From contig NZ_CH902578.1 in assembly GCF_000152805.1 (NCBI RefSeq), forward strand, positions 3,109,029 to 3,173,028: a stretch of DNA of 64,000 bases. Reading direction: 5' to 3'. Under the pieces are notes generated by a model. It saw only the letters and a program-made list of their open reading frames with translations, did no database searches and was not told where the DNA came from. This document shows positions 27,263-44,987 of the stretch, piece by piece. Both the position numbers and the translations under genes were made by a program. This stretch comes from Maritimibacter alkaliphilus HTCC2654 (lineage in GTDB: Bacteria; Pseudomonadota; Alphaproteobacteria; Rhodobacterales; Rhodobacteraceae). The stretch's first letter is position 1, and every line of letters starts with the position of its first letter.

Positions 27263-28042
27263 TCAGATCGTGCGCTGCACCATCTTTTTCTTGATCTCCG
27301 CGATGGCCTTGGCCGGGTTCAGACCCTTGGGGCAGGTCTGCGCGCAGTTCATGATCGTGTGGCAGCGGTAGAGTTTGAACGGATCTTCCAGATCGTCCAG
27401 ACGCTCGCCCGTCGCCTCGTCGCGCGAGTCGATGATCCAGCGATAGGCGTGGAGCAGCGCGGCGGGGCCGAGGTAGCGTTCGGAGTTCCACCAGTAGCTC
27501 GGGCAAGAGGCCGAGCAGGAGGCGCACATGACGCATTCGTAAAGACCGTCGAGCTTCTTGCGGTCTTCGATCGACTGGCGCCATTCCTTCGCCGGGGCGT
27601 TCGTCTTGGTTTCGAGCCACGGCATGATCGACGCATGTTGCGCGTAGAAATGCGTGAGGTCGGGAACGAGGTCGCGCACGACGTCCATGTGCGGCAGCGG
27701 ATAGATTTTCACGTCGCCCTTGATCTCGTCGAGACCGTAGATGCAGGCGAGGTGGTTGCCGCCGTCGATGTTCATCGCGCAGGAGCCACAGATCCCTTCG
27801 CGGCAGGAGCGGCGAAAGGTCAGGGTCGGGTCGATCTCGTTCTTGATCTTGATGAGCGCGTCCAGAACCATCGGCCCGCAGGTGTCCATGTCGACGAAAT
27901 AGGTGTCGACGCGCGGGTTCTGGCCGTCATCCGGCGTCCAGCGATAGATCAGGAACTTGCGCACGTTCTTGGCGCCCTCGGGCTTCGGCCAGGTCTTGCC
28001 GGTCCGGATGCGCGAGTTCTTGGGGAGTGCGAATTCAACCAT
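27263..28042 (-). CDS. sdhB: Succinate dehydrogenase iron-sulfur subunit
   Basis: The 259-residue subunit carries the 2Fe-2S ligands in [16 protein letters not shown]...C and the 4Fe-4S motif [12 protein letters not shown]. The 3Fe-4S ligands lie in [17 protein letters not shown]. It passes electrons from the SdhA flavin to ubiquinone at the SdhCD interface (complex II, TCA cycle). It is the last gene of sdhCDAB, 12 nt after sdhA, and is followed by a strong terminator. Confidence 0.97.
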
Positions 28043-28054
28043 GGATCTCTCTCC

Positions 28055-29860
28055 TTAGAACGTCCGCGCCTTGGGCGCGATTTTCTTGAGTTCGATGCCG
28101 CCCTGATCCTCTTTCGTGAGCGGGTCGAGGATGACGGGGCGGTAGCTCAGCGTCACCTTGTCGCCGTCGACGCGGGAGATCGTGTGCTTGCGCCAGTTCT
28201 CGTCGTCGCGGGCGGTGTGATCCTCCATCGCGTGCGCGCCACGGCTTTCCTTGCGGGCTTCGGCGCCGACGATGGTGGCCAGCGCGTTCGGCATGAGGTT
28301 GGTCAGCTCCAGCGTTTCCATCAGGTCCGAGTTCCACACCAGCGAGCGGTCGGTGACCTTGAGGTCGGCCAGCTTGCCCGCGATGGCGGTCATCTTCTCG
28401 ACACCCTCTTTCAGCGTCTTGTCGGTGCGGAACACGGCGGCGTCGGCCTGCATCGTCTTCTGCATTTCAAGGCGCAGTTCGGCGGTCGGCGTGCCGCCGT
28501 CGGCGTGGCGCAGCCCGTCGAAACGGTCGAAGGCCGCGTCGATGGAAGCCTGGTTCGGGGTCGGCACCGGGGACTTGGCGTCCACCACCTCACCCGCGCG
28601 GATCGCGGCGGCGCGGCCGAACACGACGAGGTCGATGAGCGAGTTGGAACCAAGGCGGTTCGCCCCGTGGACCGACGCACAGCCCGCTTCGCCCACGGCC
28701 ATCAGGCCCGGCACCACGGCGTTCGGGTTGTCTGCGGTCGGGTTCAGAACCTCGCCATAATAGTTCGTGGGGATTCCGCCCATGTTGTAGTGAACGGTCG
28801 GCAGAACCGGAATCGGCTCTTTCGTGACGTCCACGCCCGCAAAGATTTTCGCGGATTCGGAAATACCCGGAAGCCGCTCGGCCAGCGCCTCAGCGGGCAG
28901 GTGGCTGAGGTTCAGGTGGATGTGGTCGCCCTCGGCCCCGACACCGCGCCCTTCGCGGATTTCCATCGTCATCGAGCGCGAGACGTAATCGCGCGGGGCG
29001 AGGTCTTTGTATTGGGGCGCGTAACGCTCCATGAACCGTTCGCCCTCGGAGTTGGTGAGATACCCACCTTCGCCGCGCGCGCCCTCGGTGATGAGACAGC
29101 CGGAGCCGTAGATGCCGGTCGGGTGGAATTGCACGAATTCCATGTCCTGAAGCGCAAGGCCCGCCCGCGCCACCATGCCGCCACCGTCACCGGTGCAGGT
29201 GTGGGCGGACGTGGCCGAGAAATAGGCGCGGCCATAGCCGCCCGTCGCCAGCACCACCATCTTGGCGTTGAAGACGTGCATGGTGCCATCGTCGAGCTTC
29301 CAACAGACGACACCCTGACACACGCCGTCATCCGACATGATGAGGTCGATTGCGAAGTATTCGATATAGAACTCGGCGTTGTTCTTGAGCGATTGACCGT
29401 AGAGCGTGTGCAGGATCGCGTGACCCGTGCGGTCGGCGGCGGCGCAGGTGCGCTGCACGGCCGGGCCTTCACCGAATTCGGTGGTGTGGCCGCCGAAGGG
29501 ACGTTGGTAGATCTTGCCCTCTTCGGTGCGCGAGAACGGCACGCCGTAGTGTTCCAGCTCATAGACGGCGGCGGGCGCTTCGCGGGCGAGGTATTCCATC
29601 GCGTCCGTATCGCCCAGCCAGTCGGACCCCTTCACGGTGTCGTACATGTGCCACTGCCAGTTGTCGGGGCCCATGTTCGACAGCGAGGCGGCGATGCCGC
29701 CCTGTGCTGCCACCGTGTGCGAGCGGGTCGGGAACACCTTGGTCACGCAGGCGGTTTTCAGACCCTGCTCGGCCATGCCCAGCGTCGCGCGCAAGCCAGC
29801 GCCACCGGCACCGACCACGACCACATCGTATTCGTGCGTTTCGTATTCGTATTCAGCCAT
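28055..29860 (-). CDS. sdhA: Succinate dehydrogenase flavoprotein subunit
   Basis: The 601-residue subunit has the FAD-binding motif [15 protein letters not shown] and the covalent-FAD histidine in [14 protein letters not shown]. Substrate-binding segments HPTGIYGSG and [20 protein letters not shown] are present, and the catalytic arginine region near RTDGK-like segments is consistent with the family. It oxidises succinate to fumarate. Length and start (ATG after GGGACAAGAC) are standard for alphaproteobacterial SdhA. Confidence 0.97.
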
Positions 29861-29870
29861 GTCTTGTCCC

Positions 29871-30248
29871 TCAGGCGCCCAGCGAGATGCGGATGACGGC
29901 GTAGACGCCGACGAGCGCGAACAGCGTGCAAAGCAGGCGGGTGGCGATGATGATCACCATCCCGGCGCGGCCATGCACGTAATCTTCGACGACCACCTGC
30001 ACACCTTGGAAGAGGTGCAGGAAGGCGGTCAGGAAAAAGGCGATCGCGATGATCGCGTTCACCGGATGCGCGTATGCGGCGCGCACCGCTTCGTATCCGT
30101 CGCCAAGGTTGTAGGCGAAGGGAAAGACGAAGAGCGGCACGAGGAACAGGAGCGCGATGGCGCTGATCCGCTGTTCCCAGAAATGCCCGGTGCCCTGCTT
30201 GGCGGAGCCAAGGCCTTCGACGCGGGCGCGGTCGGTCTGATAACGCAT
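29871..30248 (-). CDS. sdhD: Succinate dehydrogenase membrane anchor subunit
   Basis: The 125-residue protein has three transmembrane helices (about 27-45, 62-80 and 97-118) and the family segment [17 protein letters not shown]. That segment holds candidate haem and quinone-site residues. N-terminal [20 protein letters not shown] matches alphaproteobacterial SdhD. It lies 10 nt after sdhC and 10 nt before sdhA. Confidence 0.93.
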
Positions 30249-30258
30249 GTTGTCCCCC

Positions 30259-30642
30259 TTATCCGACGATGATGGTCACGATGACCATGACGACGGCGAA
30301 GCCGATGCCGATCAAGGCCGAGCGGTTCACGGTTTTCTGTCCGAAGTGCGAACCCGTGTCCCAGATCAGGTGCCGAACGCCGTTGGCGAAGTGCAGCCAG
30401 AGCGCGCAGATCGACAGGAAGAACACGATATCCCCGAACCATGAGGTCAGGACCGCGCTGGCCGTCTCGAAATACTCGGGCCCCGTTGCGAGCGCGAGAA
30501 AATACCAGACGATCAGAACGCCGGAAAAGCCCATGGCGACGCCGGTGATCCGGTGCAGGATCGACAGTTTCGCATTGAGCGGAAGGCGATAGGCCTGAAG
30601 GTGGGGGGAGAGCGGGCGGTTGCCCTGGTTCACATCAGCCAT
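30259..30642 (-). CDS. sdhC: Succinate dehydrogenase cytochrome b556 subunit
   Basis: The 127-residue protein contains the SdhC signature RPLSPHLQAYRLP...SILHRITG and the haem-ligand region LHFANGVRHLIWDTG. Three membrane helices are visible. It is the first gene of sdhCDAB. A 12-bp-arm palindromic operator lies 134-170 bp upstream and recurs before sucC. AAAGGTCGC precedes the ATG. Confidence 0.95.
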   Translation of the reverse strand: MADVNQGNRPLSPHLQAYRLPLNAKLSILHRITGVAMGFSGVLIVWYFLALATGPEYFETASAVLTSWFGDIVFFLSICALWLHFANGVRHLIWDTGSHFGQKTVNRSALIGIGFAVVMVIVTIIVG

Positions 30643-30775
30643 GAAGCGACCTTTCGATGCAGTTGGCGACGAGCTGTTTGCAATTCGGCCCCATCCATAG
30701 ACAAAATTGACCGAGAGTCACGGGTGGATTCCACCAAATCGCGTTTGATCGGCGCTAACGTGAAGATTTTGTGGC

Positions 30776-30812
30776 ATTTGTGATCACGGTCAAAGTCCGC
30801 GTGATCACAAAT
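30776..30812. promoter_or_regulatory. Palindromic operator upstream of sdhCDAB (shared with sucC)
   Basis: TTGTGATCAC (30778-30787), a 13-bp spacer and GTGATCACAA (30801-30810) form a perfect inverted repeat, and flanking AT/AT extends the arms to 12 bp. Each arm contains the palindrome GTGATCAC, so two dimers could bind 23 bp apart. The same arms with the same spacer occur at 41054-41086 before sucC. The regulator is not identified. Confidence 0.78.
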
Positions 30813-31536
30813 TACCAATCCGCCATTTCTGCGAGGAAATCGACATATTCGGTGCAGATCGTGATCTCGCGATATTCCGGGTCGTAGAAGGCGTTCGCCT
30901 CGCCGCAACCCGCGTATGAGATCACCAGATCGTCGTCGAGGCTGAATTCCGCGTTCAGCGCGTCGATCTCGTCGAACAGAAGATCGGCGATATAGTCGTC
31001 CCGCTCGAATTCGCCCGCCACGAAGGTTTCTCCTTCTCCGGCCTCCGCCATCGCGTCGAGGATCTGTCCCCATGAGTTGTTGGCCTGATTAAACTCGTCC
31101 TCGCACCATTCGGAGCGTTCCTCGGGCAGGCCGAGCTCCTCGGCCACGTCGTCCCGCTCGTCCGGGTTGGCGCCGTAAAAGATGCAGACGAGGTTGTAAT
31201 ACCGCTGTTCGTCCGGCCCATGCACGTCCCAGAACATCGGTTCTTCCCCGGCCTCGCGGGCCATGTCCGCCTCGGTCAGGAACCCGAAGGCCGCGTCATA
31301 GGCGATGCCGACCGCGTCCTCTCTTCCCAGAACGCATCGACGAGCAGGATCGACAGAACATCCGCCGCGTCCTCCTCCTGCCCGAAGATCGGCACGTCCT
31401 GAATGTCGATCAGGGCGTGGCCCAATTCGTGATAAAGCGTGGCCAAGATGTTCGATTCCACGAAGGCTTCCACATCCTGCGCCACCGCAAGAGACGGCAG
31501 TCCCACAAGGGCCGCCGTGGCGAGTTTTTTCAGCAA
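30812..31536 (-). pseudogene. DUF4344 metallopeptidase-like gene, frameshifted
   Basis: Two reading frames together match the intact neighbour at 31549. The 5' part starts at TTG 31536, with AGGGGGAT upstream. It encodes a signal peptide and the zinc motif HELGHALI (His36, Glu37, His40), then EEDAAD, and runs off frame at about 31319. The 3' part continues as DAVGIAYDAAFGFLTEADMA and then WDVHGPDEQRYYN and CGEANAFYDPEYREITIC, ending at 30812. A one-base deletion near 31319-31320, in TCCTCTCTTCC, explains the break. It is either a recent pseudogene or a sequencing error, because both halves are otherwise well conserved. Confidence 0.8.
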
Positions 31537-31548
31537 TTCGGTATCCCC

Positions 31549-32343
31549 CTAGCGGGCCATATTGGCCAGTTCTTCCCCAAATTCCGTGCAGATCTGAATC
31601 TCCAGCAGGCCCGGGTCATAAAAGGCATTCGCCTCGCCGCAGGGGATCACGCTGATATTCAGTGTCTCGGGCAGAACCATCTCGGCATTCAGCCGTGCGA
31701 CTTCGCTCCGCACGAAACGGGTCAGATGGTCGTCCTCGTTCATCACCCAGTCGAGCCGGATGGTCTGCCCCGGCGCATCGGTGACCAGACCATCCAGAAC
31801 CGCGTTCCATGACGTTTCCGCAAGCGCATATTCCTCGTCACAGGTGCGCGCCCGCGCTTCGGGCAGATCGAACAGATCGACAAGGTCGGCCCGCATGTCG
31901 GTATCGACCCCGTACATGAGACAGGCGAAATTGTAATAGCGTTGCAGGTCCGGCCCATGCACGTCCCACAGCGAAAGGTCGTCGCGATGCTTTCCCGCGC
32001 CTTCCGCAAAGAGCCAGTAATTGCGGGCCACATCCCCCGCCATGCGCTGCACCGTCACGTCGTCATGCAGCCGGTTCATCAGGACGACCGCGAAGGTGTC
32101 GGCCGCAAACTCCTCCGGCCCGTAGATCGGCAGGTCCAGCAGGCCGATCAGCGCATGGGCCAGTTCGTGATAAAGCGTCTCGGTGACGTTCGCCTCGACA
32201 TACAACTGCACGGGATCGACGCGGGCAGGGGCGGCCTGAAGGGTTTGGCCGCCCGGCTTTGCGAAGGTGTAGAAATCCTTGTCCCCTTCGGCGTGCGCCG
32301 GAGAGAGAGACAGGGCGAGGGCGATGGCAGCCGCGAAACGCAT
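31549..32343 (-). CDS. DUF4344 domain-containing secreted metallopeptidase-like protein
   Basis: The 264-residue protein has a signal peptide (MRFAAAIALALSLSPAHA). The zinc-peptidase motif HELAHALI (His59, Glu60, His63) is followed by PEEFAADTFA, which supplies a third acidic ligand. Conserved segments include WDVHGPDLQRYYNFAC, a CDEEYALAETSW helix and CGEANAFYDPGLLEIQICTEF. The same blocks appear in the frameshifted copy downstream, so the two are tandem paralogues. DUF4344 is a putative metallopeptidase family of unknown substrate. It sits between an uncharacterised membrane-anchored protein and the sdh operon, all on the minus strand. Confidence 0.85.
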   Translation of the reverse strand: MRFAAAIALALSLSPAHAEGDKDFYTFAKPGGQTLQAAPARVDPVQLYVEANVTETLYHELAHALIGLLDLPIYGPEEFAADTFAVVLMNRLHDDVTVQRMAGDVARNYWLFAEGAGKHRDDLSLWDVHGPDLQRYYNFACLMYGVDTDMRADLVDLFDLPEARARTCDEEYALAETSWNAVLDGLVTDAPGQTIRLDWVMNEDDHLTRFVRSEVARLNAEMVLPETLNISVIPCGEANAFYDPGLLEIQICTEFGEELANMAR

Positions 32344-32381
32344 GTCTACATGAGGGCGCGAACCGCGGGCGCCGTCAAGAA

Positions 32382-32927
32382 CTAGCTGTCACGGCACCGA
32401 AACCGAAACCGCGCCGCAGTCGCCTCGGCATCGGTCGGTCCGACATACATGACCTGACAGGTTTCCGTTTCCTGCGGGAACCTCAGCAATTCACCGGGAA
32501 GCAGGTTATGCTCCTCGCCGTTGAAATAGACGCCGGCCCAGGTCTCGCTCCCACTTTTGAAACGGTGGAAGCCGAGGCTCGCGAAATCGCCGTCCGGCGC
32601 GTCGAGGTCGACGGCGCTGTTGGGTGGCAGGTCGAAGACACCGCTGAAGACGCGCAGGTAAGAGCCGCTTTCGCCACTGTTGTCGGCGGATTCGGCCAGA
32701 GCCTGCGAAACGCCGCCCAAGGCGCTGATGGCCTTTTCCAACTGTTCGTCGTTCTGGGGCGCGATCCCCTGATCCGAGATCGACGTGGCAATGCTGTCGA
32801 GACTAGCGACGAGGTCGTCGATGGTGCTGACGGTCGTATCGGTCGCGCGATCGAAAAGGGCGAAACCGGCGACGCCGGCAGCCAGCAATCCGCCGACGAA
32901 GCCAAGCCCCTCTTTCAGAAATTTCAT
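32382..32927 (-). CDS. Uncharacterised membrane-anchored protein
   Basis: The 181-residue protein has one N-terminal hydrophobic helix (LGFVGGLLAAGVAGFALF). A helical, probably coiled-coil, segment follows (about 33-85: STIDDLVASLDSIATSI and later KAISALGGVSQALAES). A C-terminal beta-rich domain contains two cysteines (CQVMYVG and FRCRDS) that could form a disulfide. Start ATG 32927 follows TAGGGGTA. No family was recognised. It is co-oriented with the DUF4344 genes and mch. Confidence 0.7.
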   Translation of the reverse strand: MKFLKEGLGFVGGLLAAGVAGFALFDRATDTTVSTIDDLVASLDSIATSISDQGIAPQNDEQLEKAISALGGVSQALAESADNSGESGSYLRVFSGVFDLPPNSAVDLDAPDGDFASLGFHRFKSGSETWAGVYFNGEEHNLLPGELLRFPQETETCQVMYVGPTDAEATAARFRFRCRDS

Positions 32928-32955
32928 GTGCGAATACCCCTAAGTAACGGGGTCA

Positions 32956-33990
32956 TCACATCGGCATCAGCGCCCAGTAGTCAAGATCGAGCATCACGTG
33001 GGGCAGGTATTTCCCGTCCTCGCCCTTGAGCGCGAAGTCCTGAATGCCGCCTTTGGTCGCCACCAGCCGCAGACGCACCGCCCCCACGCCGGGCGACGGG
33101 GTTTCGGCCTTGTCGAGCACTTCGGACCATGCGCGAACCGTGTCGCCCGCAAAGCACGGGTTGGCATGGGCGCCCGCGTTCAGGCCGACGATCATCTGCG
33201 CGTTTGCCAGACCGTTGAAGCTGAGGCTTCGGGCCATCGAAATCACGTGCCCGCCGTAGATCAGGCGCTTGCCGTCCTCGCGGTTGGTCGCGTCGAAATG
33301 CACCTTGGCCGTGTTCTGCCACAGGCGCGTGGCGATCATGTGCTCGGCTTCCTCGACGGTCACGCCGTCCACATGGTCGATCTTTTCGCCGATCTCGTAG
33401 TCGCCGAACCTGTGCCGCTCGCCCGCCAGCTTGAACTCGTAGCGCGAGAAGTCGAGCCCTTCGGGGATCACCAGATCCTCCACGGGCACGACCTGTTTCA
33501 ACTCCGGCACCAGCGTGTCCGGCGCATCGGCGGAAAGGTCTTTCTTCCGCACCATGACCCAGCGGATATATTCCAGCACCGGCTCGTCATGCTGGTTGTA
33601 GCCAGTCGTCTTGACGTAGACGACGCCCGATTTGCCGTTCGAGTTCTGCTTGAGCCCGATCACCTTGGACTCCGAACGCAGTGTATCGCCCGGCCAGACC
33701 GGTTTGAGCCAACGCCCTTCGGCATAGCCAAGGTTGGCGACCGCGTTCAGGGAGATGTCCGGGACGGACTTGCCGAACACCAAATGGAACGCGGCAAGAT
33801 CGTCGATCGGTGAGGCATCCAATCCGCAATCGCGCGCGAATTCGTCGGAGGAGTAGAGCGCGTGACGGGCCGGGTAGAGCGCGTGATACATCGCACGCTC
33901 GCCCCCCGATACCGTGCGCGGCACGGCATGGGTAATCACTTCGCCGATGCGATAATCCTCGAAAAACCGGCCCGGATTGGTCTTTGCCAC
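32956..33990 (-). CDS. mch: Mesaconyl-CoA hydratase (beta-methylmalyl-CoA dehydratase)
   Basis: The 344-residue protein is a double MaoC-like (hotdog) hydratase. The first half holds FFEDYRIGEVITHAVPRTVS and the second RFGDYEIGEKIDHVDGVTVEEAEH. The length matches Mch of Rhodobacter sphaeroides (about 343). Mch hydrates mesaconyl-CoA to beta-methylmalyl-CoA in the ethylmalonyl-CoA pathway for acetate assimilation. Start is GTG 33990, with GGGAGAA upstream. It lies in one minus-strand unit with DUF1737, an NnrU-like gene and mcl2, as remembered from the R. sphaeroides locus. Confidence 0.9.
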   Translation of the reverse strand: MAKTNPGRFFEDYRIGEVITHAVPRTVSGGERAMYHALYPARHALYSSDEFARDCGLDASPIDDLAAFHLVFGKSVPDISLNAVANLGYAEGRWLKPVWPGDTLRSESKVIGLKQNSNGKSGVVYVKTTGYNQHDEPVLEYIRWVMVRKKDLSADAPDTLVPELKQVVPVEDLVIPEGLDFSRYEFKLAGERHRFGDYEIGEKIDHVDGVTVEEAEHMIATRLWQNTAKVHFDATNREDGKRLIYGGHVISMARSLSFNGLANAQMIVGLNAGAHANPCFAGDTVRAWSEVLDKAETPSPGVGAVRLRLVATKGGIQDFALKGEDGKYLPHVMLDLDYWALMPM

Positions 33991-33991
33991 G

Positions 33992-34195
33992 CTATTGTTC
34001 TCCCAGCTTGATGTCGGGGTGGTAGTCGCCGGGGGCGTCCTTGGTCACGGCCTGACCGCAGCGCATCACGCCGTTGGCCGCGTCGAAGGCATAGGTCGGA
34101 CTGCCGTGAAGCACCCAGCCCTTGTTCAGGGCCGCCGTCACCTTGTGGCAGAACTCCGACGTGTCGTCGGCGGACAGAAATCGATAGAGTTGCAT
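33992..34195 (-). CDS. DUF1737 domain-containing small protein
   Basis: The 67-residue protein matches the DUF1737 pattern: MQLYRFLSADDTSEFCHKVT and LNKGWVLHGSPTYAFD. AAGGAGCAGCC precedes the ATG. It lies 1 nt from mch and 9 nt from the NnrU-like gene, so it is part of the mcl2-mch unit. Function is unknown. Confidence 0.82.
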   Translation of the reverse strand: MQLYRFLSADDTSEFCHKVTAALNKGWVLHGSPTYAFDAANGVMRCGQAVTKDAPGDYHPDIKLGEQ

Positions 34196-34204
34196 GGCTG
34201 CTCC

Positions 34205-34750
34205 TTATCCGAACGCCGGGTAGCCGAGCCAGTAGTGGACGCCCGCGATGGCGGCAAAGACGACGACGGCACCGACCGCGGCCCCGATCTCCTTGCCGAC
34301 CGGGAACGGCCCGGTGTTCTTGGCGGGTTTGGCCTGACGGTTGATGAGGATCACCTCGATCACGGCCCAGGCGAGCAGGCCCCCGAACAGCACGAAGGAC
34401 GGCATGTCGCCGTTCACCAGCAGGTGCGCGATGGCCCATGTCTTGACGCCGGTAAGCTGCGGGTGGCGGATCTTGGACGTGATCCACGTCTTCATGCCGG
34501 ATGCCGCGAACAGGTAGACCGCGAACAGCATGAGCAGATTGTTGATGCCCACCATCGCGGGGCTGCGGCCCCAATAGGCCGACCCGTCCCACATCCGGTA
34601 GCCGATCACCATCAGGACGATCCCGACGAGAGACAAAAGCGCGACAGGCCCCTTGGCCTTGTCGCCCATATTGGCGCGCGCCTCGGGCGCGATACGTTTG
34701 AACAGATGCGCGAGCGTCCAGATGAGGACGCCCAGAATGAGAACGAGCAT
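34205..34750 (-). CDS. NnrU-family membrane protein
   Basis: The 181-residue protein has about five transmembrane helices and the NnrU-type segments RIAPEARANMGDKAKGPVAL and IRHPQLTGVKTWAIAHLLVNGD. NnrU relatives occur near nitrite/nitric oxide reduction genes but also as methyltransferase-like membrane proteins elsewhere. Here it lies between mcl2 (3-nt gap) and DUF1737, so a role tied to the ethylmalonyl-CoA operon or chance co-transcription is possible. ATG follows GAAGGATAAGCC. Confidence 0.83.
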   Translation of the reverse strand: MLVLILGVLIWTLAHLFKRIAPEARANMGDKAKGPVALLSLVGIVLMVIGYRMWDGSAYWGRSPAMVGINNLLMLFAVYLFAASGMKTWITSKIRHPQLTGVKTWAIAHLLVNGDMPSFVLFGGLLAWAVIEVILINRQAKPAKNTGPFPVGKEIGAAVGAVVVFAAIAGVHYWLGYPAFG

Positions 34751-34753
34751 GGC

Positions 34754-35608
34754 TTATCCTTCGAGACTGGCGATGGCCTCTGCTTTCGCGAGCAGAGCTT
34801 TCGCGGTCACGATATGCAGATTCTCAACGATCTTTCCATCGACGACCGCCACGCCCTGTCCCGATGCCTCGACCTCTTCGAAGGCTGCGATCTGGCGGCG
34901 GGCGAGGTCGATGTCGGCCTCGGAGGGCGCGAAGAGCTCGTTCGCGATGTCGATCTGGGCCGGGTGGATCAGCGTCTTGCCGTCGAAGCCGAGGTCGCGG
35001 CCCTGTTCGCATTCCGCGCGCAGGCCGTCGTCGTCCTTGAACGCGTTGTAGACACCATCGACGATCAGGGCACCGGCGGCACGGGCCGCGATCAGGCTGA
35101 TCTGAAGGCTGGTCATGACGGTGGAGCGGTCGGGCGTGACGCGGCAGCCCAGTTCCTTGACCAGATCGTTGGTGCCCATGACGATCCCCGCCAGACGCGG
35201 GTGGGCCGCGATCTCGCGCGCGTTCAGGATGCCCTCGGGCGTCTCCATCATGGCCCAGAGCGGGACATCGGGAATCATGTCGGCCAGCGTTTGCAGATCG
35301 TAGGCCGAGTTCACCTTTGGCAGAAGCAGCGCGTCGATTTCGGCGCCCTGCATCGCTTCGACGTCCTGACGCCCCCAGACCGTATCGAACCCGTTGATCC
35401 GCACGATCCGCATCCGGTTGCCGAAGCCGCCCTTGTCCAGTTCCGCGCGCAGGGTGGCCCGTGCATCCGCCTTGGCGTCGGGGGTCACGGCGTCTTCGAG
35501 GTCGAAGATGATCGCATCGGCGGGCAACCCCCGCGCCTTGTCCAGCGCCCGCTCTTTCGAGCCGGGAATGTAGAGCACGGAGCGGACGGGGCGCGTCGAT
35601 TGGGTCAT
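34754..35608 (-). CDS. mcl2: HpcH/HpaI-family malyl-CoA thioesterase
   Basis: The 284-residue protein starts at ATG 35608 behind AGAGGTAG. It has the CoA-ester lyase fold with RSVLYIPGSKERALDKA, IIFDLEDAVTP (metal-binding acidic residues), ALLLPKVNS, MMETPEGILNA and KTLIHPAQIDIANELF. Its length and proximity to mch match Mcl2 of R. sphaeroides, the (3S)-malyl-CoA thioesterase that releases malate at the end of the ethylmalonyl-CoA pathway. A lyase (Mcl1/CitE-like) assignment is the alternative. Confidence 0.85.
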   Translation of the reverse strand: MTQSTRPVRSVLYIPGSKERALDKARGLPADAIIFDLEDAVTPDAKADARATLRAELDKGGFGNRMRIVRINGFDTVWGRQDVEAMQGAEIDALLLPKVNSAYDLQTLADMIPDVPLWAMMETPEGILNAREIAAHPRLAGIVMGTNDLVKELGCRVTPDRSTVMTSLQISLIAARAAGALIVDGVYNAFKDDDGLRAECEQGRDLGFDGKTLIHPAQIDIANELFAPSEADIDLARRQIAAFEEVEASGQGVAVVDGKIVENLHIVTAKALLAKAEAIASLEG

Positions 35609-35888
35609 GATTCTACCTCTGAGCAATTTTGTTGCGCGAAACCAACATGGGGCGCACGAATTGGCAAGGGTCAATGTGCCGCAATGCAGAAAAACGCGGG
35701 CGAGACGACGCAACGCTCCTGCCGTTAACCAAACTTTCGGGGATGTGGCGCGAGGATGAATGCACAAGCCGGGCGACGGAGGCCCAATGCGGTTGGCCAT
35801 CACGCCACGGGGACAAGCCCGGCGATGTCACAGGGTTTGCCGTCGGAATACCGGCTGGCCAGCAAGCCCCGACCTGAAGGACCGAACC

Positions 35889-36200
35889 ATGAAACGGACC
35901 CTTATCGCATCGACCTTCGTCTGCCTGTCCACGCTCGCCGCGTCGACCGCAGTCGCCCAGACCGCCAATTGCTCGACCCGTGACCATGTCGTCGGACACC
36001 TCGCTGACCGTTTCGGCGAGGCGCGCCAGTCCATCGGACTCGCGTCCGGTAACCGGATCGTCGAGATGTTCGCCTCGCCCGAGACCGGCACATGGACCCT
36101 GACCATGACCACGCCCGACGGGCGCACCTGCATCATCGGTGCGGGCCAGGCCTGGGAACGTGTCGAGGACGAGGTGACGCCTGCGGGCCAGCCTACGTAA
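35889..36200 (+). CDS. Small secreted protein of unknown function
   Basis: The 103-residue protein has a signal peptide (MKRTLIASTFVCLSTLAAST ending near VAQ). A mature domain follows with two cysteines (ANCSTRDH and GRTCIIGAG) and strand pattern IVEMFASPETGTWTLTMT. ATG 35889 is chosen because the signal starts there and GAAGGACC lies upstream. It converges with the TauE/SafE gene, overlapping it by 8 bp. No function was recognised. Confidence 0.72.
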   Translation: MKRTLIASTFVCLSTLAASTAVAQTANCSTRDHVVGHLADRFGEARQSIGLASGNRIVEMFASPETGTWTLTMTTPDGRTCIIGAGQAWERVEDEVTPAGQPT

Positions 36201-36945
36201 GCGCATCCGCGATCAGCTTGGTCCCGGTGAGGACGAGGAGCGTGTATGTGATCGTGAAGTAAAGGCGCTCGGGGATGATGTCGTGAAGTTTGACCCCGAG
36301 CCAGACGCCGATCACCGCGGCGGGAATCAGCATTACGTCCGCCTTGAGCGACTGCCACGTGAAGATGCCCAAAAACATATAGGGCACGAACTTCATCAGG
36401 TTGATCGCCCAAAACACGAGGACGGTGGTCGCCTGATACGTCGTCTTGTCCAGCCCGCGCGACAGAAGGAAGACCGCGGCGGGCGGGCCGCCGGCGTGAC
36501 TGACGAACGAGGTGAAGCCGCCCACCGTGCCCGAGATGAGCCCGCCGGTTCGGCCCATCGGCTGCCGGGCGGGCCGAAGCAGCCCGAATTTCCGCGCCAG
36601 CTGAAACGCGACGAACCCGATCGCGACGGCGCCGATCAGCAGCCTGAACAAATCCGGATCGGCCAGATGGTAGAAGACCGCACCAAGCGCCACACCGGGA
36701 ATGGCGCCGAGGATCAGCATCAGTGCTGCGAAGCGATCCCACTTCTTCCAGTAGGGCTTGAGCGCGGTGACATCCATCAGCATGAGGAGCGGCAGCATCA
36801 GACCGACGGCCTGGCCGGGTTCCAGAATCAGCGCCAGAAGCGGCGTCGCGGCAAAGGCCGCACCGGACCCGAAGCCGCCCTTGGATATCCCCGCGAAGAT
36901 TACGGCCGGGATCGCGACGAGGAAGAACATGAGGTCGATTTCCAA
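36193..36945 (-). CDS. Sulfite exporter TauE/SafE family permease
   Basis: The 250-residue protein has seven to eight hydrophobic helices and the family segments ISKGGFGSGAAFAATPLLAL near the N-terminus and GTVGGFTSFVSHAGGPPAAV in the middle repeat. Start TTG 36945 is preferred over ATG 36930 because GGGGAG sits 8 nt before it. TauE/SafE proteins export sulfite, sulfoacetate or related organosulfonates; the substrate cannot be told here. The start faces mdh across 153 bp. Confidence 0.87.
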   Translation of the reverse strand: MEIDLMFFLVAIPAVIFAGISKGGFGSGAAFAATPLLALILEPGQAVGLMLPLLMLMDVTALKPYWKKWDRFAALMLILGAIPGVALGAVFYHLADPDLFRLLIGAVAIGFVAFQLARKFGLLRPARQPMGRTGGLISGTVGGFTSFVSHAGGPPAAVFLLSRGLDKTTYQATTVLVFWAINLMKFVPYMFLGIFTWQSLKADVMLIPAAVIGVWLGVKLHDIIPERLYFTITYTLLVLTGTKLIADALT

Positions 36946-37083
36946 AGCGCGCGCTCCCCAAAGTCTCTGATTGCCCACACCTTTAGCGGTATCAACGGGG
37001 CCTGCAAGGCATCCTGCCGCAATGCAGCGCCCTTGCGCCGTCTGGTGAACGGGGCTAGGCAGCGCGAGGACAGTAAAACCTGA

Positions 37084-38061
<978 letters not shown>

Positions 38062-38087
38062 TCGCAGTCCACAGGTAAGTTTCGAGA

Positions 38088-38114
38088 GGGTCGGGCGGTT
38101 GTCCGGCCCTTTTT
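38088..38114 (+). terminator. Rho-independent terminator of mdh
   Basis: GGGTCGGG (38088-38095) pairs with CCGGCCC plus G-U pairs (38102-38109) around a 6-nt loop and is followed by TTTTT (38110-38114) and a further T-run. It begins 26 nt after the mdh stop. Confidence 0.82.
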
Positions 38115-38200
38115 CGTTTTTGGGCGGTGAAGGGGCTGCGTTAACCTTTGGCGAGGTTGCGTGGCGTTAAGTCGCTGAAAAACAGGGGATATTTTTGGGA

Positions 38201-38233
38201 AGGATACTAGAATCCTAGTATCCTAGAATTCTG
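38201..38233 (+). repeat. CTAG-rich 33-bp repeat, copy 1
   Basis: AGGATACTAG (38201-38210), AATC, CTAGTATCCT (38215-38224) is a perfect 10-bp palindrome. It is followed by AGAATTCTG. The entire 33-mer occurs again, exactly and inverted, at 57673-57705. It contains three CTAG tetramers, a word normally rare in bacterial DNA. It is AT-rich compared with its surroundings and lies after the mdh terminator. Confidence 0.85.
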
Positions 38234-38278
38234 ACACGCGCGTCCAAGAGCCCCATCCGAACCACGCCCCACCGTCCC

Positions 38279-39295
38279 TCATCCTGGCGCAGGCACCGCA
38301 AGCAACGCGCCCCGACGTGCCGCCACTTCTGCGGCAAGCTCGTCCAGATGCGGGGCAAGGGCGTGGTCCAGCCGCGCGCCGGTCGCATCGAATTCCACCT
38401 GCGGAGCGTGACGCGCGACGGTGCCCTCAATATCGAACGGCACGCTGTGCAGCGCCCCGCGCGCCGACAGGGTCGCCAGCGTGTCAGCCGACAGTCGATA
38501 GGTCCGGTCGAACCGCTCGAGCGCCGCCGCTCTCACGTCCTGCGCCGCGATGATTTCGCGCAAAGCGGCGTAACGTGCCGGCCGCATCAGGATGCGCCGC
38601 TCCGATTGCACGGCATAGCGGAGTTGCTTCACGGCCCAATGCGTCGGCGTCAGCCCTTCGAAATGCAGAATGCGCATCTTTTCGGCTCTGCGCCGCGGCC
38701 GCGGCCCGTCTGGCCCCATGACCCGGTGCGTCACGACGTGGTGCGGCATGTAGGCGGGCACCATCGGCTTGGCCGAGGCATAGCCGGCCATCCCCTTCGG
38801 CTCCAGAAAGCGGGCGTCATCGCCGTAAACGTCGGCCAGCCCGCCCTCGACCGTGCTGCGGAACGCACCGGCGAAAAGCCCCGTGTCGCCGAGCGCCAAG
38901 ACCCGTTCCCACGGCGGAACGGCCAGCCAGTCCGCGTCACCCACCGCGTCCACGTCGTGCCAGACCCCCTCCGGTGCCCAGAGAAACTCGTCCGCGTCCA
39001 GATGGATCAGCCAATCCGCCAGCCCCTGTGCCACGGCCCACCGGAAGTTGGTGTTTTGCCGCGGCGTCTGTATGTCCGGCTGCCTGTCCCATCCCAACGC
39101 GGCCCAATGCGCGGCGTCGCAGCGGATCACGCGCACGCCGTCCAGACCGTCCAGCACCGCCGCCGCCGGATCGTCAGGGTCGTCGAAGAACAGCGTGACT
39201 TCGGCCCCCATGTCGAGGTGATGGCAGGCGAAGGCGAGCACGAGGTCGATAGGTTCGCGCACCGTCGCGACCACGCCCCAACGGCGATCAGGCAT
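38279..39295 (-). CDS. Glycosyltransferase family 2 protein, second of a tandem pair
   Basis: The 338-residue protein opens with RRWGVVATVREPIDLVLAF, has an FFDDPDDPAA strand and the metal-binding DxD-type motif HLDADEFLW, then KMRILHFEGLTPTHWAVKQL. This is the PF13704-like glycosyltransferase group often found in Rhodobacteraceae. ATG 39295 overlaps the upstream paralogue by 8 bp. Several blocks (RWGVVATVREP, DADE.LW, HFDG/HFEG.TP.HWA.K.LRYA) are shared with that gene. The acceptor is unknown, with surface polysaccharide modification inferred. Confidence 0.83.
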   Translation of the reverse strand: MPDRRWGVVATVREPIDLVLAFACHHLDMGAEVTLFFDDPDDPAAAVLDGLDGVRVIRCDAAHWAALGWDRQPDIQTPRQNTNFRWAVAQGLADWLIHLDADEFLWAPEGVWHDVDAVGDADWLAVPPWERVLALGDTGLFAGAFRSTVEGGLADVYGDDARFLEPKGMAGYASAKPMVPAYMPHHVVTHRVMGPDGPRPRRRAEKMRILHFEGLTPTHWAVKQLRYAVQSERRILMRPARYAALREIIAAQDVRAAALERFDRTYRLSADTLATLSARGALHSVPFDIEGTVARHAPQVEFDATGARLDHALAPHLDELAAEVAARRGALLAVPAPG

Positions 39296-40340
39296 TGCGT
39301 CGGGCCTGACGCTTCTGGCGGACGATGGATTGCGCGCGGGCCGAAAGCTCGGCCCGATGCAGCCGGTCGAAGCCTTCTGCGCTGAAATCCGGCGAAAGAT
39401 GCGGGGCCACTCGCGCGACCGCCCCCGCCACGTCCACAGGGTAATCAAAGAGCGCCCCGGCCTCGCGCAATGTGGCGGCCTCGTCCTCGTTCAGGCGATA
39501 GAGCGCCTCATAGACCCGCGCCCCGGCCCGCTCGGGGTTCGGCGCCTGTAGGATCGCGCCGATCGAGGCCATGCGCTGAGTGTTCAGAAGCTGGTTCATG
39601 GCCGCGCCCTGCTCGGCATATCGCAGGTTCTTGAGCGCCCAATGCGCGGGCGTGATCCCGTCGAAATGCAGGATGCGCGCGCCCGGTGCCGGGACCGACG
39701 GGCGCACCGGCGCCCCTTCGGCGTCGCGCACCTTGTGGATGGCCAGAAACCCCTCGCCGACGCGGGCCATGGCCTTGCCCGCGGAATAGCCGCCCATGCC
39801 GCCCGACAGCGCCGCCGCGCGCTTGCCATAGACCCGTTCCGCCAGACCGGGCATGTCATGCAACGGCCCGCGAAAAATCCCGCCGTAGATCTCGCCGTCC
39901 GGTGCCGTCTTCCAGCATCTCTCGACGTTGGGAATGTGAAGCCACGCGCCTTCGTGCACCTGCGCCAGCTCATCGGCCAACGGCCCCGGCAACCAGAGCA
40001 ATTCGTCCGCATCCGCGTGAAGCAGCCAATCCAGATCGCTTTGCGCCATGACCCGGTTCGCATTCACCGTCTGTCGTTTGGTCTGAAGCGCAGGTGGCTT
40101 TGCGAACCCGGCCTCTCGCCAGTAGTCGGCGTCGCATAGCGTCACCGTGACACCGGGGATGGTCGCCGCCACCTTGGCCGCCGGGTCATGCGGCACGTCG
40201 AAGAACAGGTGAACCCTCTCTGCCCCCAGCGCGAGGTGATGGCAGGCGAAGCCCACGATCAGCGCGACCGGCTCGCGCACCGTGGCCACGACGCCCCAAC
40301 GCGGCGGTTTTCCCGATGCAGTCGATACGTTCTGTTTCAC
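39288..40340 (-). CDS. Glycosyltransferase family 2 protein, first of a tandem pair
   Basis: The 350-residue protein has the same architecture as the downstream gene: PRWGVVATVREPVALIVGF, LFFDVPHDPAAKV, catalytic-metal motif HADADELLW and RILHFDGITPAHWALKNL. Start GTG 40340 has no clear Shine-Dalgarno, so the exact N-terminus is uncertain. The pair probably arose by duplication and is co-transcribed. It lies divergent from a TetR regulator 120 bp away, which could control it. Confidence 0.82.
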   Translation of the reverse strand: MKQNVSTASGKPPRWGVVATVREPVALIVGFACHHLALGAERVHLFFDVPHDPAAKVAATIPGVTVTLCDADYWREAGFAKPPALQTKRQTVNANRVMAQSDLDWLLHADADELLWLPGPLADELAQVHEGAWLHIPNVERCWKTAPDGEIYGGIFRGPLHDMPGLAERVYGKRAAALSGGMGGYSAGKAMARVGEGFLAIHKVRDAEGAPVRPSVPAPGARILHFDGITPAHWALKNLRYAEQGAAMNQLLNTQRMASIGAILQAPNPERAGARVYEALYRLNEDEAATLREAGALFDYPVDVAGAVARVAPHLSPDFSAEGFDRLHRAELSARAQSIVRQKRQARRNA

Positions 40341-40460
40341 TTGGGGGTCATTTGTGCCGTGATTTGTGTTAAGCTAGGGTCATTGACGGCTTCAAGTCCA
40401 GTTAACCCTTTTGTTTTGGTGTTCGAGGCGTCACAACACGATGACGGACAAAGGACTGAC

Positions 40461-41012
40461 ATGGCAGTTAAACGCAGGGCGGATTTCGCCGAAAATCGTG
40501 TGCGCATCCTCGAGGCTGCGGATGAAATCTTCGTCGAGCGCGGCGTCGGGGCACCACTCGACTCCATCGCGCAACGGGCCGGCGTGGGGCGTGCGACGTT
40601 CTTCCGGCACTTTCCGGACCGCCGCGCGCTCATCAACGAAATGCTGGATCTGTTCCTGAGCAAGCTCGAAGAAACCAGCAGCAAGCTGGACGTGACCGAG
40701 ACGTCGATCAACGAAATCACCCCGATGTTCTACGACCAGATGATCCACTACGCGCCGGTCGCCGATTTCCTGCGCGCGCAAAGCCGCGAAGACCCGGTTC
40801 TGCTCGAAGCCATCGACCGCTTCCACGCGCTGCTCCGCCCGCATGTTCAGGCCGCGATTTCGGCGGGAACGGTGCGCGAGGATCTGCGCGAAGCCGACAT
40901 CGTGATCTTCGCCGTCATGCTCGCAGCCGCCGCGACCACGCCGAATATCGGGCCCGAAGGCCGCCGCGCCGCCTATGACCTGATGATGCGCGGACTGCAA
41001 AAACAGGGCTGA
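40461..41012 (+). CDS. TetR/AcrR-family transcriptional regulator
   Basis: The 183-residue protein has an N-terminal TetR HTH (RVRILEAADEIFVERGV, then DSIAQRAGVGRATFFRHFPD) and an alpha-helical ligand domain. Start ATG 40461 follows AAAGGACTGAC; longer in-frame extensions upstream have no support. It is divergent from the glycosyltransferase pair and precedes sucC by 180 bp. The ligand and target are unknown. The GTGATCAC operator downstream of it belongs to the sucC promoter and is not clearly related. Confidence 0.85.
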   Translation: MAVKRRADFAENRVRILEAADEIFVERGVGAPLDSIAQRAGVGRATFFRHFPDRRALINEMLDLFLSKLEETSSKLDVTETSINEITPMFYDQMIHYAPVADFLRAQSREDPVLLEAIDRFHALLRPHVQAAISAGTVREDLREADIVIFAVMLAAAATTPNIGPEGRRAAYDLMMRGLQKQG

Positions 41013-41053
41013 AGCCCCGAATCTCCGCTGCGACCGGCTGACGCACCGGAGTT

Positions 41054-41086
41054 TTGTGATCACGACTTCGCGGGGTGTGATCACAA
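41054..41086. promoter_or_regulatory. Palindromic operator upstream of sucC (shared with sdhC)
   Basis: TTGTGATCAC (41054-41063), a 13-bp spacer, then GTGATCACAA (41077-41086), 107 bp before the sucC ATG. Arms and spacer length are identical to the site before sdhCDAB, while the spacer sequence differs. That is the expected pattern for a conserved regulator-binding site. A smaller CGGT-N3-ACCG repeat follows about 25 bp downstream. Confidence 0.78.
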
Positions 41087-41192
41087 GCTGCGCAATTCTT
41101 GGCCATTTTATCGGTAACACCGAAAAATACGTTTCATGGCGGTTCGCGCGGGTGCATGTAGGGCCCGAACGCAAACCAGATGGGACGAGTTC

Positions 41193-42386
41193 ATGAACAT
41201 CCATGAATATCAGGCGAAGGCGCTCCTTCGCGATTATGGCGCTCCGGTCTCCGATGGCCGTGTGGTCATGAAGGCCGAAGAAGCCAAGACCAAAGCCAGC
41301 GAACTGGACGGCCCGCTCTGGGTCGTGAAAGCCCAGATTCACGCCGGTGGTCGCGGCAAGGGCCACTTCAAGGAAGAAAGCGCCGGCGAAAAGGGCGGCG
41401 TGCGCCTCGCCAAGTCGGTGGAAGAAGCCGCCGAAGAAGCCAAGAAGATGCTCGGCCGCACGCTGGTCACGCACCAGACCGGCCCGGCGGGCAAGCAGGT
41501 CAACCGCATCTACATCGAAGCAGGCTCGGGCATCGAAACCGAACTGTACCTCGCGCTGCTGGTGGACCGCCAAACTTCGCGCGTGTCCTTCGTCTGCTCG
41601 ACCGAGGGCGGCATGGACATCGAAGAGGTGGCCGCGTCGACCCCCGAAAAAATCCTGTCCTTCTCGGTCGATCCCGCGACCGGCTATCAGCCGTTCCACG
41701 GCCGCCGCATCGCCTTCGCCCTCGGCCTCGAAGGCCCGCAGGTCAAGCAGTGCGTGTCGCTGATGGGCACCCTTTACAAGGTGTTCACCGAGCGCGACAT
41801 GGAGATGCTCGAGATCAACCCGCTGATCGTCACCGACGGCGGCGACCTCAAGGTGCTCGACGCCAAGTTCGGCTTCGACGGCAACGCGCTTTACCGCCAG
41901 CCAGACATCGCCAACCTGCGCGACGAGACGGAAGAGGACTCGAAGGAACTCGAGGCCTCCAAGTACGACCTGAACTACATCGCGCTCGACGGTGAAATCG
42001 GTTGCATGGTGAACGGCGCGGGCCTCGCCATGGCGACGATGGACATCATCAAGCTCTACGGTGCGGAACCGGCCAACTTCCTCGACGTCGGCGGCGGCGC
42101 CACGAAAGAGAAAGTGACGGAAGCCTTCAAGATCATCACGTCCGACAAGAACGTGAAGGGCATCCTCGTGAACATCTTCGGCGGCATCATGCGCTGCGAC
42201 GTCATCGCCGAGGGCGTGATCGCCGCGGTGAAGGAAGTCGGTCTCGAAGTGCCGCTCGTCGTCCGCCTCGAAGGCACGAACGTCGACAAGGGGAAAGAGA
42301 TCATCGCGAACTCCGGCCTGAACGTGATCGCTGCCGACGACCTCAAGGACGGCGCGCAGAAGATCGTGAAAGCGGTGAAAGGCTAA
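41193..42386 (+). CDS. sucC: Succinyl-CoA synthetase beta subunit (ADP-forming)
   Basis: The 397-residue protein begins [16 protein letters not shown], has the ATP-grasp domain ([13 protein letters not shown] near residue 45) and the CoA-ligase segment [14 protein letters not shown] near the C-terminus. Start ATG 41193 follows GGGACGAG; an in-frame ATG at 41136 is not needed. It forms the TCA enzyme with SucD. Unusually, a sulfotransferase gene lies between sucC and sucD. Confidence 0.96.
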
Positions 42387-42397
42387 GGCCCGGACGA

Positions 42398-43144
42398 ATG
42401 GTCTTCGTGGTCCCGACATACAACCTCGTTTACGCGGCCGTTCCCAAGGCCGCGTGCACGTCGTTGAAACGGGCCATGTACCGGCTCGAGCATGGCACCG
42501 AGTTCAGGGGCGTCGAGGCGAACGGCAAGCGGCTGGGGCTCCAGCAGGCCTTTCCGACGACGCGGTTCGAGCGGGGCGATTTCGCCCAGCTTGACGATCC
42601 CTGGCTTTTCGCCGTGATCCGTGACCCCGCCGAACGGGTGTTGTCCACCTGGTCGGAGCGGGTCATGGGGGCGGGCCGGTTGGAGATTGCGAACGACCGG
42701 CGCATGGGATCGGGTCTGACCCGGATCATGCGCAAGGTTACCGGCGGGATGGGGGCGCAGCCGATGCTGGACCCGCGCCCGACGCTCGACCAGTTCGTGC
42801 TGAACCTCGACCATTATGCCGCGACCTATCCGGCCGTCGCACATCACGTGCAGTCGGCAAGCTGGTTCCTCGGCCCCGATCTGGGGATCTACGACCGCAT
42901 CTATACAGTGCGCGAGTTGGACCAGCTTCAAACCGACATCCGCGCGCGCACCGGCGTGGCCGATTTCACCATTCCGCACCGGAACGCTTCCCCAAAGGCC
43001 TACAGGGCCACGATCGACGACCTGTCGGACGCGGCCTTTGACGCACTCATGACGTGGCTGGCACCCGAATACGACTTTCTGGGACAGTGGGTCGATATGC
43101 CCCGCCGCGACCAACGCAACACGCAACAGACAGGAACCATATAA
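42398..43144 (+). CDS. Sulfotransferase-family protein between sucC and sucD
   Basis: The 248-residue protein has the PAPS-binding 5' loop [13 protein letters not shown] near residue 15 and the 3'-phosphate segment [15 protein letters not shown] near 75. This is the pattern of carbohydrate sulfotransferases (Sulfotransfer_2 group). It starts 11 nt after the sucC stop and ends 2 nt before the sucD ATG, so it must be co-transcribed with both. No signal or membrane segment is evident. A PAPS-dependent sulfation of a surface glycan is inferred. The placement inside a succinyl-CoA synthetase operon is atypical. Confidence 0.82.
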
Positions 43145-43146
43145 CA

Positions 43147-44034
43147 ATGGCCGTACTCGTTGATGAAAACACCAAGGTGATCTGCCAGGGCTTCACCGGC
43201 TCACAGGGCACCTTCCACTCGGAACAGGCGATCGCCTATGGCACCAAGATGGTCGGCGGCGTGACCCCCGGCAAAGGCGGCCAGACGCATCTCGACCTGC
43301 CCGTGTTCAACTCGGTCCACGAGGCCAAGCACAAGACCGAAGCCAACGCTTCCGTCATCTACGTGCCGCCGCCCTTCGCCGCCGACTCGATCCTCGAAGC
43401 CATCGACGCCGAGATGGAGCTGATCGTCTGCATCACCGAGGGCATCCCGGTCATGGACATGATGAAGGTCAAGCGCGCGCTGGAAGGGTCGTCGTCGATC
43501 CTGATCGGCCCGAACTGCCCCGGTGTCATCACGCCCGACGCCTGCAAGATCGGCATCATGCCGGGCCACATCCACAAGCGCGGCACCGTCGGCGTCGTGT
43601 CCCGCTCGGGCACGCTGACCTATGAGGCCGTGAAGCAGACCACCGACGTGGGCCTCGGCCAGTCGTCCTGCGTCGGCATCGGCGGCGACCCGATCAAGGG
43701 CACCGAGCACATCGACGTGCTGGAATGGTTCCTCGCGGATGATGAGACCGAGTCGATCATCATGATCGGTGAAATCGGCGGCTCCGCCGAAGAAGAAGCG
43801 GCACAGTTCCTTAAGGACGAAGCCAAAAAAGGTCGCAAGAAACCCGTCGCGGGCTTTATTGCCGGGCGCACGGCCCCTCCGGGCCGCCGCATGGGTCACG
43901 CTGGCGCGATTGTGGCTGGCGGCAAGGGCGGTGCCGAGGACAAGATCGAAGCCATGAAATCGGCCGGTATCGTCGTCGCGGAAAGCCCCGCCCAGCTTGG
44001 CGAAGCCGTGCTGGAAGCGATCAAGCAAGGCTGA
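43147..44034 (+). CDS. sucD: Succinyl-CoA synthetase alpha subunit
   Basis: The 295-residue protein begins [21 protein letters not shown] with a CoA-binding Rossmann domain. [20 protein letters not shown] follows, and the phosphorylated active-site histidine lies in the [18 protein letters not shown] region. ATG 43147 is the family start; an in-frame ATG at 43054 falls inside the preceding gene. AGGA lies 14 nt upstream. It pairs with SucC. Confidence 0.96.
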
Positions 44035-44124: not shown

Positions 44125-44853
44125 TCACGCGGGCGGCGCGTATCCGAGGATCGTGAAATCCTCGGCGTAAAGCCGAGCAATGATTTCCTTGGTCCGGTCC
44201 GACGTTTCGGGCCGGACACGCGATCCGCGGCTGCCGACGTTCACCCGAGGAAGGTCTTCGACAAGCCCATGAACGCGGGCAAACGGCGGCCAGTCCGTGT
44301 CCAGCATCTCGAACTTGAGGATGCGGTCGACCGCGATCTTTCCGGCATCGTCCTTCAACATGTAGGCTTGAGGGCGAAAGTGCATCTGGCGCAAAAGCCG
44401 CGGATGGCTTTCCAGATGCTCGGCGAAATCGTTGTGCGTCATATCGGGTGCAATGTTTCGCTGCGACCAGCGCCTGTCCTGTCCGGTCGAGCCGCCGCCC
44501 TTGAGGTAGTAGAACGCCGAAACAAAGCGGTCCATCGGATCGCGCGCGATAGCGAAGGTCGCAGGCATCGCGCGATCGGCCGGTTTGTGCCGCAGATAGT
44601 AGCGGACAGGCTTGTGGCCCAACGTGTATTTGACACCCGTGCGCAGCACGCTGCTGCCGGCGGCTTTGGGGACATGTATAAAGATCGGGCCGTCCCAGAC
44701 CTCGGGGTCCGGCCCTTCGAGCTCAAGCCACCCGTGCAGGATCGGTTTGCTTATGGCGCTCCGCTCGATGCCGGTGACAAGGCTTACAAGGCGCGGCACC
44801 CCCTTCAGCGCCAACGCCCGCGTTCCATTCCTCAGAATTCCATGCTTCGCCAT
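44125..44853 (-). CDS. Sulfotransferase-family protein between sucD and sucA (opposite strand)
   Basis: The 242-residue protein carries the PAPS 5' loop in FIHVPKAAGSSVLRTGV and the 3'-phosphate motif AIARDPMDRFVSAFYYL. This is the Sulfotransfer_2 pattern of heparan/chondroitin-type sulfotransferases. ATG 44853 is preferred over TTG 44886. It is antisense to the suc genes, and its promoter must lie in the 134 bp before sucA. It is only distantly similar to the sulfotransferase at 42398. The substrate is unknown, with surface polysaccharide likely. Confidence 0.82.
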   Translation of the reverse strand: MAKHGILRNGTRALALKGVPRLVSLVTGIERSAISKPILHGWLELEGPDPEVWDGPIFIHVPKAAGSSVLRTGVKYTLGHKPVRYYLRHKPADRAMPATFAIARDPMDRFVSAFYYLKGGGSTGQDRRWSQRNIAPDMTHNDFAEHLESHPRLLRQMHFRPQAYMLKDDAGKIAVDRILKFEMLDTDWPPFARVHGLVEDLPRVNVGSRGSRVRPETSDRTKEIIARLYAEDFTILGYAPPA

Positions 44854-44987
44854 GTCTCGCCCAACCCAAGGACCATCCCGTTCCAAATGGTTATCGGACG
44901 AAATCCAATACTTCCAGAACGCGCATTGATATCTGCGGCGCGGAAGACGACTTGCAACGGAAATAGAGCCAACACAGGGTTCACCAA

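Follow-up and report, generated by a model that had tools for sequence, protein, structure and literature searches.

The 64,000-nucleotide stretch of Maritimibacter alkaliphilus HTCC2654 analyzed here (contig NZ_CH902578.1, positions 3,109,029 to 3,173,028; hereafter, the window) carries two operons of the tricarboxylic acid (TCA) cycle, each preceded by the same paired palindrome. The sdhCDAB genes of complex II lie on the reverse strand (sdhC, 30259..30642; sdhD, 29871-30248; sdhA, 28055-29860; sdhB, 27263-28042), and the genes for the succinyl-CoA and 2-oxoglutarate steps lie on the forward strand (sucC, 41193..42386; sucD, 43150-44034, with its start picked by eye; sucA, 44988-47963; sucB, 47968-49491); all are open reading frames with putative gene assignments. 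A search of the window places the 33-mer TTGTGATCAC-N13-GTGATCACAA exactly at both 30778-30810, on the reverse strand upstream of sdhCDAB, and 41054-41086, on the forward strand upstream of sucC. Each copy comprises two GTGATCAC palindromes, one per arm, with 21 bp between their centres, and one 10-bp arm is also the inverted repeat of the other. A preliminary description of this DNA had reported two identical 33-bp architectures with arm palindromes two helical turns apart, lying 136-168 bp before the sdhC ATG (30642, reverse strand) and 107-139 bp before the sucC ATG (41193, forward strand), and our searches reproduce the architecture, the helical spacing and the distances.

With up to three mismatches allowed, 0.01 matches to the 33-mer are expected in the window, and none of 100 shuffles contained two. 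Exact GTGATCAC occurs four times in the 64 kb, every time inside one of the two paired operators, and the window sites are the only exact-arm pairs in the 4.54-Mb genome, whether the spacer is fixed at N13 or allowed to vary from 3 to 33 bases. A looser search of the genome (up to three mismatches over the 16 arm bases, N13) returned 73 copies, five of them with 2 mismatches. As a control for the pattern searches, the reversed pattern is weak, since CTAG is part of it, and it was not relied on.

The preliminary description had taken the motif not to be a known site for a TCA regulator, and here it has to be corrected. GTGATCAC is reported among the binding sites of AkgR, an activator of Rhodobacter sphaeroides (PMC6365646), and the operons in the window are those predicted to be controlled in R. 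sphaeroides by the GntR protein RSP_0981, namely succinyl-CoA synthetase (sucCD), succinate dehydrogenase, and 2-oxoglutarate dehydrogenase (PMC4344238). That paper was the sole match of a literature search for RSP_0981, and a search on the regulon itself turned up no paper other than PMC11323563, where AkgR figures only in the title of a reference; the excerpts of PMC4419725 and PMC5343134 gave nothing further on AkgR. We consider it highly probable that both 33-mers are paired operators for an orthologue of AkgR, the GntR/FCD protein P0001 encoded elsewhere in the genome, which most likely activates sdhCDAB and sucCDAB together. A 2015 study of AkgR in mBio reportedly describes it as a GntR protein that activates TCA genes. 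Given the match of targets, RSP_0981 is probably AkgR.

The preliminary description had proposed a single regulator for complex II and the succinyl-CoA/2-oxoglutarate steps, a proposal that absence of the motif before sdhC or sucC in relatives would have spoken against. A motif search of the genome and its relatives found the pair conserved before both genes, so the proposal survives on this count and is very likely correct. The N13 pair (up to two mismatches) turns up in 339 of the 394 family genomes, the present one included, and mostly in two copies per genome. In a class-wide draw of 385 genomes it appears in seven, which are four of the five family members and three of the 380 genomes from outside the family. 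We examined 85 copies of the pair (75 among the family matches listed, 8 further copies from the class draw, and the two in the window), of which 82 are from the family. Thirty-seven of these precede sdhC, with 113-190 bp from operator to start (median 134), and 43 precede sucC at 95-176 bp (median 108). One more stands before a gene read by eye as fumC (L121, genome G042) and another before sucA, there positioned after mdh (L127, genome G177); the regulon may thus expand or relocate along with the genes. Among the copies from outside the family, one (L148) ends directly before a gene that by eye resembles a GntR gene, and two (L149, L150) fall within long open frames.

This distribution bears on whether the pair is instead structural, for example a terminator, an attenuator hairpin or a mobile repeat. 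Each pair could indeed fold into a hairpin with a stem of 10 bp and a loop of 13 bases, but a genome mostly holds just two copies, 80 of the 82 family copies examined lie before sdhC or sucC, and no T-run follows either copy in the window. Moreover, a lone palindrome, unable to form that hairpin, recurs before akgR, and the pair is absent jointly with that gene (see below); we give a structural origin next to no credence.

When two exact arms may be separated by any 3-33 bases, a pair is found in 361 of the 394 family genomes. Among the matches listed (75 sites in 36 genomes, read by eye on one strand), 63 spacers are N13, 6 are N12, 3 are N10, and N5, N19, and N23 (the last at L309) occur once each, so the arms are mostly 21 or 20 bp apart, centre to centre. 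Pairs with N12 spacers precede sdhC at three loci (L311, L313, L314) and sucC at 17. Four pairs with unusual spacing (L312, L315, L316, L317) all fall within long open frames, and at L310 (1550-1570, genome G187) a GntR-type frame that resembles akgR by eye is preceded by two GTGATCAC palindromes with only 5 bases between them. Third palindromes continue the 21-bp period in genomes G285 and G135, each with three exact arms, and at L026 and L128, where one arm is imperfect. Additionally, G265 holds 11 exact-arm pairs of many different spacings, and in G330 three pairs with long spacers are associated with a repeated CCATCCTAC, perhaps a repeat family.

The candidate akgR gene lies outside the window (G000:C4:2007669-2008331, reverse strand) and encodes P0001, a protein of 221 amino acids with GntR and FCD domains. 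Of 18 GntR matches in the genome, the P0001 locus is the only one with TTGTGATCACAA within one mismatch; its copy of this 12-mer, TTGTGATCACGA, ends 6 bp before the ATG. Related sequences at two other GntR loci lie away from the gene start: L061 has an exact GTGATCAC some 820 bp downstream of where the helix-turn-helix match begins, and L062 has the 12-mer with two mismatches some 660 bp upstream of the corresponding point. The five other genomic copies of the 12-mer (up to one mismatch, outside both pairs) are all in long open frames. The nearest named akgR relatives are 91-94% identical, and of the proteins with solved structures McbR matches the P0001 sequence best. A single-sequence AlphaFold model was poor (mean predicted local distance difference test score, 47.9) and was not used. 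Residues N141, H145, H188, and D210 of P0001 are near-invariant across 76 aligned rows, P0001 included. The usual metal site of FCD domains is D-H-H-H, and the set in P0001 possibly marks an altered effector or metal pocket.

The site before akgR differs in form from those before the TCA operons in that it is a single palindrome. In the 43 of 80 loci from named genomes where it is exact (R. sphaeroides is without representation among the 80), GTGATCAC follows the start of a TTGAC by 18 bases in 35 loci, 19 in four, and 20 in one, with no TTGAC in three. Given the usual promoter spacer, this places the akgR operator over the −10 region, a position that would fit repression. A comparable case is PS417_07240, a GntR-like protein from a deoxyribonate cluster of Pseudomonas simiae, which is 32% identical to AkgR and whose own gene likewise follows a conserved GTGATCAC palindrome, although a single palindrome is described there and the target pathway is another (PMC6365646).

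The recurrence of the operator before a GntR gene also argues against its belonging to a different regulator, for example to the TetR-type gene at 40458-41012. This gene matches TetR_N and adjoins the sucC operator, ending just before it, but only one of the 43 sucC-operator stretches (about 1.5 kb on each side) holds a homologue, and that one is the window's own. We regard a regulator other than AkgR as very unlikely.

Operator and akgR tend to be absent together, with ten exceptions. We scored a genome as akgR-positive when it had a match to P0001 at E ≤ 1e-70, a threshold set in a gap between 3.7e-76 and 5.7e-59, which gave 356 positives among the 394 family genomes; the negative status of G367 and G388 was assigned by elimination. 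The N13 pair is present in 329 akgR-positive genomes and missing from 27, and it is present in 10 akgR-negative genomes and missing from 28 (Fisher p = 1.5e-19). Among the 27 positive genomes without it, 19 yielded a full sucC (sucC paralogues of <60% identity were set aside; none was obtained from G061, G147, G166, G190, G201, G212, G322, and G344), and every one of the 19 has a pair upstream, 17 with N12 and 2 with N13 and weaker letters. A true sucC was obtained from 24 of the 28 negative genomes (all except G021, G122, G172, and G335), and none has a pair upstream. Similarly, the 33 genomes with no exact-arm pair at any spacing comprise 28 of the 38 akgR-negative genomes and five of the 356 akgR-positive ones (G040, G147, G155, G291, G344). 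Among the 24 akgR-negative sucC upstream regions, one (L270) contains a clearly decayed pair with 4 mismatches and an N13 spacer, which none of 200 shuffles equalled; L274 (0.04) and L267 (0.105) are unconvincing as further remnants. A quick tree built from 88 SucC proteins, many of its branches weak, implies no fewer than 13 changes of akgR and 11 of the pair, and over six supported independent contrasts the pair follows akgR in 4.4 on average and goes the opposite way in none.

The sequence past each operator suggests how AkgR would act. On the reverse strand, a putative −35-like element, GTGAC (30717..30721), lies 56 bp past the sdhC operator and is followed by a putative −10-like element, TATGGA (30694..30699). 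Of the 37 sdhC loci in the promoter alignments, from which sites with more than two mismatches were excluded, 28 have GTGAC 55-58 bp past the operator, four have it at 67, 76, 77, and 77 bp, and five have no such match; T and A stand 22 and 23 bases after its start in 84% each of the 32 loci that have it. The pattern before sucC is weaker. There, CGTTTC (41130..41135, forward strand), 43 bp past the operator, is a possible −35 region, and CGTTT recurs 41-43 bp past the operator in 16 of 43 loci. The near end of the operator is about 78 bp from the −10-like box of sdhC and perhaps 70 bp from that of sucC. Spacers between the arms have an A+T fraction of 0.56 (sdhC) and 0.63 (sucC), compared with 0.43 and 0.44 in the 60 bp upstream and 0.48 and 0.54 in the 60 bp downstream.

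Operators at this distance upstream, before a −35-like element that is itself poor, would fit activation, and the offsets of GTGAC, taken with the third palindromes at a 21-bp period, fit a face-of-helix logic. The opposite sign, in which AkgR binds and represses sdh and suc, for example by looping, has in its favour that repressors are common among GntR/FCD proteins and that AkgR probably represses its own gene. The operator nevertheless leaves the −35-like element of sdhC free, with GTGAC 55-58 bp beyond it in most loci; this element matches TTGACA poorly, as expected of an activated promoter, and the literature describes AkgR as an activator (PMC6365646). Repression of the two operons thus seems improbable to us.

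It is less probable still that the 33-mers are sites for CceR or for a CRP/FNR-type protein. The TGTGA and TCACA within the arms recall CRP half sites, which are separated by six bases in a CRP site; here they overlap as one palindrome with no six-base spacer, and TGTGA-N6-TCACA does not occur. CceR (RSP_1663) is predicted to act on sdh in R. sphaeroides as well (PMC4344238), and its regulon is stated to include succinate dehydrogenase, 2-oxoglutarate dehydrogenase, and fumarase in that species, though not in Paracoccus (PMC11323563). Its motif, GTT-N6-8-AAC (PMC4344238), is missing from both 33-mers. Separate CceR-like half sites do follow the operator within 80 bp in nine of 37 sdhC loci and two of 43 sucC loci, so CceR may act beside AkgR. 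The window contains one such half site, CGCTAAC, at 30753-30759, between the operator and the sdhC promoter.

In the mechanism we propose, one AkgR dimer would occupy each GTGATCAC palindrome, and the two dimers of a pair, two helical turns apart on the same face of the DNA, could bind cooperatively. From their position upstream of the promoters, they would jointly activate sdhCDAB and sucCDAB, and the single palindrome over the akgR −10 region would most likely mediate negative autoregulation. The effector of AkgR is perhaps a TCA metabolite. A more general form of this proposal, in which the sign of AkgR action is set by two operator grammars, with a 20-21-bp pair in helical register activating TCA operons and a single −10 palindrome repressing akgR, has in our judgement an even chance of being correct.

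Membership of the two operons in an AkgR regulon is supported by a GTGATCAC operator before the sdh and suc genes in the window and in relatives, by a GntR gene of this genome that is itself preceded by the operator, and by the co-occurrence of regulator and operator across genomes. Several observations weigh on the other side. That P0001 is orthologous to AkgR, and that AkgR is RSP_0981, we infer from the protein family, the motif, the targets, and the gene neighbourhood; as to the last, akgR is 9-15 kb from a paired site in 10 of 14 genomes with both on one contig, among the matches listed and read by eye, much as only a few locus tags separate RSP_0981 from RSP_0974-6. The exact operator precedes akgR in just 20 of 30 loci, the present one included, and in the 43 of 80 named-genome loci considered above, where at least two of the misses (L175, L186) look like misplaced start codons. 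In the present genome akgR is more than 1 Mb from the sdh/suc cluster. Ten genomes have the N13 pair without a clear akgR (G019, G033, G096, G114, G256, G264, G273, G319, G325, G334); seven of them are less than 90% complete and G019, G114, and G256 are not, and in G256 and G114, chosen as pair carriers, the pair was confirmed upstream of sucC. The sign test on supported branches is non-significant alone (median p 0.125), and the pairs found with free spacing may partly lie away from target genes.

The motif and the regulon were already known, and what we add is their occurrence in a Maritimibacter-like genome. The only part that may be new is the strictly spaced pair, with arms 20 or 21 bp apart, contrasted with the single site before akgR. 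The paired arrangement is absent from the literature passages found on this regulon, though the primary description of AkgR may already contain it. Our results suggest that the control described in R. sphaeroides, with a single GntR regulator governing complex II and 2-oxoglutarate oxidation, is nearly universal in the family and is lost along with the regulator. The pairing and its spacing also make it possible to test directly how one GntR/FCD protein might activate one promoter and repress another.

Other genes accompany the two operons in the window. Two adjacent DUF4344 metallopeptidase-like genes (PF14247; 30812-31264 and 31549-32343, reverse strand) lie beside sdhC, and homologues were found in nine of the 37 sdhC stretches. 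Two open reading frames that by eye resemble sulfotransferases occupy the gaps between sucC and sucD (approximately 42390-43144, forward strand) and between sucD and sucA (44125-44886, reverse strand).

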